From Ramlibacter tataouinensis TTB310 (GTDB taxonomy: Bacteria; Pseudomonadota; Gammaproteobacteria; Burkholderiales; Burkholderiaceae_C): 64,000 nucleotides of DNA. The translations under genes and the position numbers were made by a program. Numbering within the stretch: the first letter of the stretch is position 1; each line of letters opens with the position of its first letter. The notes under the pieces were generated by a model that was not told the DNA's origin, searched no databases, and saw only the letters and a program-made list of their open reading frames with translations. Below are positions 34,246 through 37,564 of the stretch, piece by piece. The stretch lies in NCBI RefSeq assembly GCF_000215705.1, contig NC_015677.1, forward strand, positions 3,794,001 through 3,858,000. Reading direction: 5' to 3'.

Positions 34246-34569
34246 CTAGCGGCTGCCGCCCTGGGGGTTGCCCTGGTTGCCTTGGGTGTTGCCGCCGCGG
34301 TTGCCGCCGCCGGAGGCCTCGCCGCCTTTGCGACCGGCTTCGCGCGCCTCTTCCGAGGTGAACTCGTGGGCGGTGCCTTTCTCGTGGGCGGCCTTGCCGC
34401 CCTTGCTGCCGGCCACGCGGGCTTCCTCGGGGGTGAACTCGTGCGCGTTGCCGCTCTCATGCGCGGCCTTGCCGCCTTGGCTGGCGATCTCGCGCTGGCG
34501 CTCCGGGTCCATCGACGCGAAGCCCCGGTTGGACTTTCCGCCTTGATTGCCCTGGTTGCTCGATGCCAT
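34246..34569 (-). CDS. KGG-repeat stress-induced protein (con-10/GsiB-like)
   Basis: 107 residues, Gly/Asn/Gln-rich ends around three KGG-type repeats (SQGGKAAHE, SKGGKAAHEKG, RKGGEAS) separated by EFT(P/S)EEAR linkers. This hydrophilic LEA-like design is known from general-stress proteins in Bacillus and enterics and is expected to be disordered or helix-forming in desiccation. Start MASSNQGNQGG has AAGGAG upstream. It lies downstream of the katE-like gene on the same strand. Confidence 0.9.
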   Translation of the reverse strand: MASSNQGNQGGKSNRGFASMDPERQREIASQGGKAAHESGNAHEFTPEEARVAGSKGGKAAHEKGTAHEFTSEEAREAGRKGGEASGGGNRGGNTQGNQGNPQGGSR

Positions 34570-34710
34570 GGATGAACTCCTTGGGATGTGAGCAGCCGGC
34601 ACCGCGCCGGCCGCGTCCGCCCATTGACGCGCAGAACGGCCCGGCCCCAGGTCAGTACCGGCGTGAAGCAGCCGTAGGAAAGGCCTGCTGCCGCGCAGCG
34701 GTGCCGAGAC

Positions 34711-36867
34711 TCAGGCGGGCGTGGCGTCGGCCGCGAGCCGCGACCAGTGGCGATGGCGCGCGATGGCGGCGATGAATTCCTGTGCCATCTGCAGCCGGGT
34801 CGCCGGGTCGTTGCTCCCCGTCACCACGCCGGCGCCTCGCCCGCCATCGGGTGCGCCCGGCACGACGCCTTGCAGCAGGTCCACCGCCTCGCCGATCAGG
34901 CACAGCGCCTTGCCGTGCCGCCAGGCCTCGTGCACGAACTGCAACGCTGGCGCATGGCGGGCCAGCGCCTGCGTGCTGGCACTGCCGCCGGGCACCAGCA
35001 CGGCGTCGAACAGCACCGACGAGGTGCTGGCAAAGGTATGGTCCACCGCCAGCTGCTGACCCGAGGAGGTGGACACCACCCCCAGCTGGGCCGAGACCAC
35101 GCGCGTCAGCGCGCCCTGGTCCTGCAAGGCCTGCTGCAGCACCTTGTACGCGCCCACCTCCACGCCCGGGGCCACCAGGACGGCGACCTTGCGCGTGACG
35201 ATGCCGGAGCCGCCGCCGTCCTGGCCCAGCGCCGGCGAGGACTCGATGGGCAGCCGGGCGCGGTGCGCCCGGAACCCGGCCCGCCCGGCGGCCGCCCTGC
35301 CGTCCGGCGGCGCGATGCCCAGGGGCTCGGCGACCTTGCGCGCCAGCTTGGGATCCACGTGCGCCAGGTTGTCCACCACCCGCTGGCGGATGGCCGCCGT
35401 CTCCAGCTTGGCCAGCTCGAACTGGAAGGCGGCGATGATGTGCTCCTTCTCCGCGGCCGGCTGGCTGTTCCAGAACAGCGTGGCCTGGCTGAAGTGGTCG
35501 TCGAAGGCCGGCCCGCGCCGCCGCAGCTTGGGCGAGTCGATGGCTTCGGCCACGCTCTGGAAGCCCTGCTGCCCGCCGTCCATGCGGAACTCGGCGCCGC
35601 TGGCCAGCGAGTTGGGCTCGTAGCTCACCGAGCCCTTGCTCACCAGCATGCGGTGCTGCCCGTCGCGCTGGAAGTTGTGGAACGGGCAGACGCCGCGGTT
35701 GATCGGCAGCTCGTGCCCATTGGGCCCGCCCAGGCGCGACAGCTGGCTGTCGGAGTAGGCCAGCAGGCGGCCCTGCAGCAGCGGGTCGTGGCTGAAGTCG
35801 ATGCCCGGCACCACATGGCCGGGGTTGAATGCCACCTGCTCGGTCTCGGCGAAGAAGTTGTCGGGGTTGCGATTGAGCACCAGCCGGCCCACCGGCAGCA
35901 CCGGCACCATCTCCTCGGGAATGAGCTTGGTCGGGTCCAGCAGGTCGAAGCCCAGGCCCTCGGCCTTGTCCTCGTGCACCAGCTGCACGCCCAGCTCCCA
36001 CTCCGGAGGGTGGCCGCGGTCGATCGCCTCCCACAGGTCGCGCCGGTGGAAATCGGGGTCGCTGCCGGCGATCTTCTGCGCCTCCTCCCAGGCCAGGGCA
36101 TGGCGCCCCAGCCGCGGCTTCCAGTGGAACTTGACGAAGTGCGAGACGCCATGCGCGTTGACCAGGCGCCAGGTGTGCACGCCGAAGCCTTCCATCATGC
36201 GCAGGCTGCGCGGCAGGGCCCGGCCGGACATCAGCCACATCAGCATGTGCGTGGTCTCGGGCACCAGGGAGGCGAAATCCCAGAAGGTGTCGTGCGCGCT
36301 GGAGGCCTGCGGCATGCCGTGGTGCGGCTCGGGCTTGAGGGCATGCATCAGGTCGGGGAACTTCATCGCGTCCTGGATGAAGAAGACCGGCATGCTCGCG
36401 CCCACCAGGTCGTACACGCCTTCACGGGTGTAGAACTTGACGGCGAAGCCGCGCACGTCGCGCACCGTGTCGGCGCAGCCGCGCTCGCCGGTGAGGTTGG
36501 AAAACCGCACGAACACCGGCGTGCGGCTGCCGGCCTCCTGCAGGAAATCGGCGCGGGTGTACTGCGACAGCGTCTTGTACAGCTCGAAGTAGCCGTGCGC
36601 GCCGCAGCCGCGCGCGCCCACCACGCGCTCGGGGATGCGCTCGTGCGCGAAATGCGTCAGCTTCTCGCGCAGGATGAAGTCTTCCAGCAGGGTCGGCCCG
36701 CGCGCGCCCGCGCGCAGCGAGTTGTGGTTGTCGGGGATGACCACGCCCTGGTTGGTGGTCAGGATGCTCTCGGGCGCCTGGCTGAAGGCTTCCAGCTGCT
36801 TGTTCTTGGCGGCGACTCCCTCGCCGGCCTTGGACTTGCGCTGGGCATCCAGCTTGGATTGGGCCAT
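34711..36867 (-). CDS. katE: Large-subunit catalase (HPII/KatE-like) with altered active site
   Basis: 718 residues: catalase domain (about 25-500), linker, and a C-terminal DJ-1/PfpI-like domain (about 535-690), as in E. coli HPII. The proximal heme ligand Tyr371 ([14 protein letters not shown]), Ser123 and FFIQDA are kept. Both distal catalytic residues are changed: the usual VVHARG is VVGARG (Gly84 in place of His128 of HPII) and VGNNTP is VGASMP (Ala157 in place of Asn201). The spacing of 73 residues is conserved, so this is substitution, not misalignment. Normal catalase activity is therefore doubtful; it may be another heme peroxidase-like activity. The gene symbol reflects homology only. 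The start is [15 protein letters not shown] upstream. Confidence 0.85.
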
Positions 36868-36925: not shown

Positions 36926-37048
36926 TCAGCGGGCTTCGAGGTCGAGCGCCGCCTCGATGACGTTGGCCACCATGGCCACCGCGAGCACGCCGCCCGAGCC
37001 GGCAGCACACCAGACCAGCCATTCGGGGATGCCGGCGAGCAGTTCCAT
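36926..37048 (-). CDS. 40-residue single-span membrane microprotein
   Basis: An ATG-TGA ORF with AGGAG 8 bases upstream encodes 40 residues: a short N-terminus (MELLAGIPEW), one hydrophobic segment (LVWCAAGSGGVLAVAMVANV) and an acidic tail (IEAALDLEAR). It lies 58 bases upstream of the katE-like gene on the same strand and may be cotranscribed. I do not recognise it; coding support is the SD and the sensible one-span topology. Confidence 0.5.
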   Translation of the reverse strand: MELLAGIPEWLVWCAAGSGGVLAVAMVANVIEAALDLEAR

Positions 37049-37279
37049 GGGTCTTTCTCCTGAGCGACGTGTAAGGACGATAGCCAAGCCTCAGCGTAAC
37101 AAGCTCATGGGCAAAGCCCGTAGTTGGCTGGCGGGCGCGTTCGTCGGTGCGCACCATCAATCGCGGTAGGACGGCGCCGACACGGCAGAGCTACGGAGTA
37201 CGCCGACAGCGCTCCCGCGCACCGTCCTACCCGGCCGGCGTCGGCCGCGGCGCAGCATGAAAAGACAGGAGCCGCCACC
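37049..37279. promoter_or_regulatory. Divergent intergenic region with a 10-bp spaced inverted repeat
   Basis: Promoter region for the katE-like unit (minus) and the 37280 gene (plus). GGTAGGACGG (37165-37174) and its complement CCGTCCTACC (37222-37231) are 47 bases apart. They may be a stress-regulator site pair or the ends of a small palindromic repeat. I see no convincing gene. Confidence 0.4.
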
Positions 37280-37564
37280 ATGCCCGAGAAGAACTTCCCG
37301 CTGCCCTCCGACCGGCCGCAGTCCGAGACCTTGCCGGCCCAGGGCGAAACCCAGGAGGCCGTGCCGCGCATGCCGCACGAGCGCGACGAATCCGCCGGCA
37401 GCACGCAGCCGCGCGCCGAGCCGTCGGCCGAACGCGTCGGCCGCATCGCGCAGCAGGATGCCGAGCGCGGGGTGGCCGACACCAGCAAGGGCGCCGAGCT
37501 GGACGCGACCTACGACCGCCTGCGCGAGGACCTGCCGGACGGCGAGAAGAAGCACCGTCCGTGA
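37280..37564 (+). CDS. Small hydrophilic protein of unknown function
   Basis: 94 residues, strongly hydrophilic and rich in Glu, Arg, Pro and Asp (e.g. RMPHERDESAGS, RIAQQDAERGVADT), with no membrane segment and likely disordered. CAGGAG lies 10 bases before ATG 37280. It sits beside the KGG protein and the catalase-like gene, so a stress role is plausible but only by context. Its end is 9 bases from the rpe stop (convergent). Confidence 0.65.
   Translation: MPEKNFPLPSDRPQSETLPAQGETQEAVPRMPHERDESAGSTQPRAEPSAERVGRIAQQDAERGVADTSKGAELDATYDRLREDLPDGEKKHRP

Follow-up and report, generated by a model that had tools for sequence, protein, structure and literature searches.

Catalase is a textbook enzyme, and its distal histidine is regarded as essential. 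The systems closest to the locus analysed here are E. coli HPII (KatE), Neurospora CAT-3 and KatE1, a second large-subunit catalase found in the same bacterial genus. For HPII, laboratory variants with Asn at position 128 (PDB 1gg9) and with Ala at position 201 (PDB 1ggj) are known, and the H128N variant is described as inactive (PMC9687031). Large catalases also carry a C-terminal domain derived from Hsp31, and its chaperone activity has been measured in Neurospora CAT-3, where removal of the last 17 residues leads to the loss of 85% of this activity (PMC9687031, PMC9137513 and PMC10135305). The catalase fold, the HPII variants, the chaperone tail and pseudoenzymes are thus each already known separately; among the titles and abstract openings searched, which covered few subscription journals, no report was found of catalytic residues being lost repeatedly from natural catalases, with the loss maintained by selection. 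The original prediction, made without a search, knew of no described catalase group in which both distal residues are missing.

The window, i.e. the whole stretch of DNA that was analysed (64,000 nucleotides), covers positions 3794001-3858000 of a genome consisting of one contig of 4.07 Mb. It contains a gene, here called katE2, with the following features:

34711..36867, minus strand: katE2, large-subunit (clade-2 type) catalase paralog, 718 codons (translation, Pfam and alignment to HPII)
36616..36618, minus strand: codon 84, Gly, replacing the distal catalytic His (HPII His128) (translation and HPII alignment)
36397..36399, minus strand: codon 157, Ala, replacing the distal Asn (HPII Asn201) (translation and HPII alignment)
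35824..35826, minus strand: codon 348, Asn, replacing HPII His392, the partner in the His-Tyr bond (HPII alignment)
35755..35757, minus strand: codon 371, the proximal heme-ligand Tyr, retained (HPII alignment)
34714..35202, minus strand: C-terminal DJ-1/Hsp31-like domain, approximately residues 556-718 (PF18011 and PF01965)

The coordinates and residues given for this gene in the original prediction were correct, the minus strand having gone unstated. Residues 24-712 of KatE2 align to residues 67-746 of E. coli HPII (phmmer, E ~1e-227); the alignment is gapless at both sites and places Gly84 on HPII His128 and Ala157 on Asn201. Translation likewise yields the other motifs listed earlier: VVGARG (Gly84) and VGASMP (Ala157) with a spacing of 73, Ser123, FFIQDA, Tyr371, Asn348 and the DJ-1-like tail. 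Like HPII, KatE2 has the proximal Tyr and Arg, the Ser, the gate Phe pair and the C-terminal domain; unlike HPII, it has Gly, Ala and Asn for His128, Asn201 and His392, as well as Asn for Thr168 and Leu for Val169. The distal His and distal Asn expected of a monofunctional heme catalase are therefore both absent, as is the His of the HPII His-Tyr cross-link, with Ser123, Tyr371, Arg367, Arg81 and Arg121 being retained. Arg367 is the arginine that goes with the proximal Tyr, Arg81 and Arg121 are taken to serve the heme propionates, and residue 125 (HPII Val169) is presumably part of the inner channel.

That the protein is otherwise a complete large catalase is indicated by its Pfam scores (PF00199, 568.7 bits against a cut-off of 25; PF06628, 77.7; PF18011, 71.2; PF01965, 51.3), and both the catalase core and the long-catalase C-terminal domain sought in our fold test were found. 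The Hsp31/DJ-1-like tail and terminal stretch of chaperone-type large catalases are also present, giving KatE2 the tail architecture of Neurospora CAT-3 (PMC9137513, PMC10135305 and PMC9687031). CAT-3, the fungal protein from which the chaperone data come, differs in that it retains catalase activity. With the NCBIfam HPII equivalog model NF008422, KatE2 scores 985.1 bits against a cut-off of 1102, a cut-off which is not diagnostic here, given that all seven tested relatives, intact ones included, also fall under it (1019.5-1094.4 bits). The predicted structure of KatE2 has a mean pLDDT of 63.4 and a poor core, and nothing concerning the pocket was based on it.

Two neighbouring genes on the same strand complete the description of the locus:

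34246..34602, minus strand: gene for a stress protein with KGG repeats, just downstream of katE2 (PF10685)
36926..37048, minus strand: 40-codon hydrophobic small ORF (MELLAGIPEWLVWCAAG...), 58 bases upstream of katE2 (ORF reading)

The KGG gene lies beside katE2 in 16 of the 50 full-length genus rows, a count made on flanks that are often short. The small ORF has no Pfam match; by the one motif used, a similar ORF precedes katE2 in 28/48 genus rows vs 0/19 rows from outside the genus, and it is this conserved ORF, rather than any nameable promoter motif, that emerged from the upstream region. Further upstream, the plus-strand frame at 37124-37564 encodes a hydrophilic protein without a Pfam match; many genus rows have a counterpart there, with 40-73% identity. 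Upstream of katE2, rpe occurs in 47/50 rows of the genus, altered ones as well as intact (three stretches end short), and gph or trpE occurs downstream in 36/50, with flanks often of just 1.5 kb. This shared locus indicates that the katE2 copies of the genus are orthologs at one site.

The genus is understood here as the GTDB group containing Ramlibacter and Caenimonas, represented by 60 genomes, since named records of both carry KatE2 proteins identical to those of its genomes; counts per genome pool the fragments of one genome. KatE2 was found in 55 of the 60. Because the distal His is missing in 28 of these 55 gene-bearing genomes, being replaced by Tyr, Phe, Asn, Gly or Trp, sequencing error can be dismissed as a general explanation and, by the same recurrence, so can a lone mutation. 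The exact Gly/Ala pair occurs in three genus genomes (G000, G053 and G057). In the 50 full-length genus rows, from which G012 was removed because its intact copy duplicates the named locus L041, 33 are altered: His has been lost in 28, Asn in 26 and both in 21, while five of the 33 retain the distal His and have lost Asn157, and these may retain some activity. Four further genomes that retain His and Asn (G001, G035, G040 and G049) have copies too fragmentary to enter the full-length set and are included in the counts per genome. Unlike the substitutions of 1gg9 and 1ggj, which introduce residues that altered KatE2 proteins carry naturally, these losses are natural, recurrent, often combined (21/50 genus rows) and accompanied by further changes in the pocket and channel.

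Outside the genus, a sample of 250 genomes of the family was searched, 73 of which gave a match with an E-value of 1e-190 or lower. In this sample 4 of the 18 KatE2-like rows (at least 59% identity) are altered, namely L203 and L205 (Tyr), L207 (Asn) and L211. The last of these (G123, another genus of the family) retains the distal His and the first Asn, its second Asn and its proximal Tyr both having changed to Ser. The remaining 67 large catalases from outside the genus have both the distal His and the first Asn. Within the set of 80 named loci, 2 of the 69 non-genus rows are without the His: L083 (Polaromonas) and L089 (a Comamonadaceae MAG).

The original prediction suggested testing for a monophyletic group sharing Gly and Ala, and the trees show none: a single Gly/Ala clade is ruled out, and there are instead repeated losses to Tyr, Phe, Asn, Gly or Trp. 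One tree was built with the trait columns excluded, from 61 rows (50 from the genus and 11 from outside); most Variovorax and Bacteroidetes loci were omitted from the trees. Parsimony on this tree gives at least 10 changes of the distal His, 4 of the Asn and 9 at the His392 position, tallies which count either direction, so that a few could be regains. With genus rows alone, at least nine His changes are needed; forbidding the return of His results in 14 losses, including a single one outside the genus, and an 87-row tree gives 13 His changes. Some losses are shallow, with G042 standing beside intact G034, G026 beside intact G023, and G002 beside intact G041 and G019. In these three young losses it is mainly the His that has changed, together with residue 348 in two of them and single further positions.

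Positions that change were compared in an altered set of 35 rows (the 33 from the genus, L083 and L089) against a reference of 34 intact KatE2 and 3 KatE1 rows. Of 225 positions invariant in the reference, 135 are unchanged throughout all 35 altered rows. The most frequently changed are His84 (30/35), Thr124 (27), Asn157 (27) and Phe483 (25), followed by Met208 (18), Asn158 (17), Ser370 (17) and Asp74 (15). Changes cluster around the distal pocket and along the inner channel; Phe483, Asp74, His75, Trp260 and Lys265 are among the frequently changed positions that lie elsewhere or are unplaced. Residue 125 is Val in 32/34 intact vs 3/35 altered rows, the other 32 having Leu, Met, Phe, Ile, Thr or Ala. 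The gate-valve Phe162 is lost in 10/35 altered rows and Phe170 in 12/35 (roles of the gate Phe pair and the final channel section taken from PMC9687031 and transferred by alignment). Residue 348 is other than His in 13/35 altered vs 2/34 intact rows, and Ala stands at 157 in 16/35. The terminal HRHW stretch is retained in 31/35 altered rows and in 31/31 intact rows reaching that end. Taken at the level of residues, this is the pattern of a protein that would have been released from the needs of peroxide catalysis while still being bound by those of its fold.

Whether such proteins could split peroxide in another way, as ordinary if slower catalases, bears directly on the reading of these losses. 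Compensating residues in the pocket had been named beforehand as a possible objection: no His was found at positions 124, 125, 157, 158, 162, 170 and 208 (pocket and inner channel) in any of the 35 altered rows, and Asn occurs at 124, adjoining the pocket Ser, in 16 of them, including the KatE2 of the window. Some altered rows have His at 287, 338, 373 or 483, positions which were not placed in the pocket. In favour of a slower catalase are this Asn, the presence of Ser123 in 34/35 altered rows and that of His84 in five altered genus rows. Against it, besides the want of His at the listed pocket positions, nine of the 35 altered rows carry precisely the Asn of the inactive HPII variant H128N (PMC9687031), and the earlier expectation that normal dismutation is unlikely is upheld by this analogy. 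We consider an ordinary slower catalase quite improbable. Judged from the HPII variants, silent residues would probably make a silent protein, and catalytic silencing of KatE2 appears well supported by its residues.

The strongest rival, already raised in the original prediction, is that of a repurposed heme enzyme or sensor in which proximal heme binding is kept and the distal side is remodelled for a new substrate or a gas ligand. It is in agreement with the clustering of changes about the distal side, with the fixation of Tyr371, Arg367, Arg81 and Arg121 in 35/35 altered rows, and with a channel mouth in which Arg136 and Met213 are unchanged in all 35 rows and Asp137 in 34. Against it, the replacements of the distal His vary among close relatives (Tyr, Phe, Asn, Gly, Trp), and with such variety a single new distal chemistry common to all is not to be seen; the alteration of residue 125 in 32/35 rows fits poorly with a kept substrate path; and L211 has lost its proximal Tyr, which weakens a heme-centred role. 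The fixed proximal residues leave some room for a sensor or other heme role, which seems to us unlikely. For a role as scaffold the loss in L211 would be acceptable, with the qualification that heme may not always be kept.

Codon omega values were estimated in IQ-TREE (GY+F3X4) under a model with a single omega and equal rates at all sites, and they are therefore averages. The 17 intact rows of the genus have an omega of 0.0525; the altered clades give 0.092 (16 rows), 0.054 (5 rows) and 0.048 (7 rows). By domain (means of 15 bootstraps each), omega in the clade of 16 is 0.068 vs 0.037 for intact rows in the barrel and 0.088 vs 0.035 in the wrapping and helical part, while in the tail it is not raised (0.057 vs 0.064). 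No clear shift relative to intact rows was found in any domain for the altered clades of 5 and 7. The contrast between domains comes from one clade (16 rows). All 33 full-length altered genus copies are unbroken, with start, stop and 712-721 codons, and broken copies were seen only among those of the intact type (one internal stop in G040, frame breaks in G049). These open frames and low omega values rule out a pseudogene, as had been argued from the single intact frame. At the sequence level the KatE2 group thus shows what characterizes a pseudoenzyme: catalytic residues gone, frame whole and purifying selection.

A slower form of decay, in which KatE2 is redundant beside KatE1 (or, in some genomes, KatG) and drifts, its intact frames being just a matter of time, could account for the approximately twofold omega of the core and the longer end branches in the clade of 16. 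It is difficult to reconcile with an omega far under 1 in all three altered clades and with 33 unbroken copies out of 33. A second complete catalase had been suggested as something to look for in the same genome, and one was found: KatE1 (L001/L185), a large-subunit catalase approximately 55% identical to KatE2, with an intact His and Asn-Asn. The genome also contains an intact small catalase and a 782-codon open frame with a KatG-type match. A further short catalase-family match (L004, G000:C1:666498-667391, minus strand, 93.3 bits) has one TGA within the matched stretch. KatE1 was found in 42 genus genomes and, unlike KatE2, keeps the distal His and both Asn in 42/42, with Cys at the place of His392.

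In the 48 genomes that are at least 90% complete, KatE2 is present in 44, together with KatE1 in 35 and alone in 9; KatE1 alone was found in none and neither gene in 4. This means that KatE2 occurs in 44/44 of these genomes with a large catalase and KatE1 in just 35, which counts against decay. KatE1 is present in 25/26 His-less vs 10/18 His-bearing genomes of this completeness (Fisher p 0.0017), an association favouring decay; with loss of His or Asn pooled, the figures are 26/30 vs 9/14 (p 0.12), and on seven independent pairs, about two of which differ in KatE1 and do so in the expected direction, the association is not significant. The explanation of His loss by KatE1 redundancy was therefore set aside, its raw significance disappearing once relatedness is considered, and slow decay as a whole is in our view improbable.

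The same association could be taken as a sign that altered KatE2 subunits act as regulatory partners in mixed tetramers with KatE1, which is present in nearly all the His-less genomes just counted. The low identity of the two proteins (just ~55%) argues against this, as do two His-less genomes without any other PF00199 match, G018 (estimated 100% complete) and G038 (80%), and we regard mixed tetramers as very improbable. In total, six genomes have an altered KatE2 as their sole PF00199 match and lack a PF00141 or Mn-catalase match. In G018 (L132; 220 contigs) the only heme-catalase match comes from an altered KatE2 (Tyr, Ser, Ser), and in G038 it is a KatE2 with Phe for His. The other four (G027, G029, G048 and G006) have a KatE2 with His and without Asn157, a point in favour of the slower catalase considered above: that genomes with a single catalase mostly keep the His fits with partial activity there and counts against full silencing of the rows that retain it.

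Repeated loss of catalytic residues with the rest of the protein whole suggests a second job that would need no catalase activity. We propose that katE2 is the ortholog of an ordinary large catalase of two functions, a core splitting H2O2 and a chaperone tail derived from Hsp31/DJ-1. Changes in the distal pocket and inner channel may have abolished the first of these repeatedly, within the genus and in part of the wider family. What would remain is a folded, probably heme-loaded tetramer (both states being presumed) that purifying selection preserves for some task other than catalysis, the likeliest candidate being holdase or unfoldase work of the C-terminal domain on the catalase scaffold in times of stress. 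We hold with moderate confidence that the catalase is silenced and that KatE2 persists because of another function, most likely as a chaperone on its tetrameric scaffold, the chaperone part being drawn from architecture and selection. Several observations count against this reading: in absolute terms the tail is under no stronger constraint than the core, the difference in omega between domains comes from the clade of 16, and the whole core has been kept, though a shorter protein could serve if just the tail mattered. The fixed heme anchors are weak evidence alone, because 135 of the 225 invariant positions likewise never change.

KatE2 may accordingly be described, in a proposition that we judge as apt to prove right as wrong, as pseudo-catalases that form a natural series, their catalytic activity having been switched off at least nine times in the genus and more often among its kin, in which the whole scaffold has been kept under selection for a non-catalytic job; these would possibly be the first proteins of the catalase fold with solely a chaperone or heme-scaffold function. 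The recurrent loss of the distal His constitutes a natural experiment separating catalytic residues from those of the fold or a second function, and makes the role of the extra domain of large catalases directly testable in its native setting. It also means that catalase annotation, or the number of catalase genes when taken as a measure of peroxide resistance, can mislead, as exemplified by G018.
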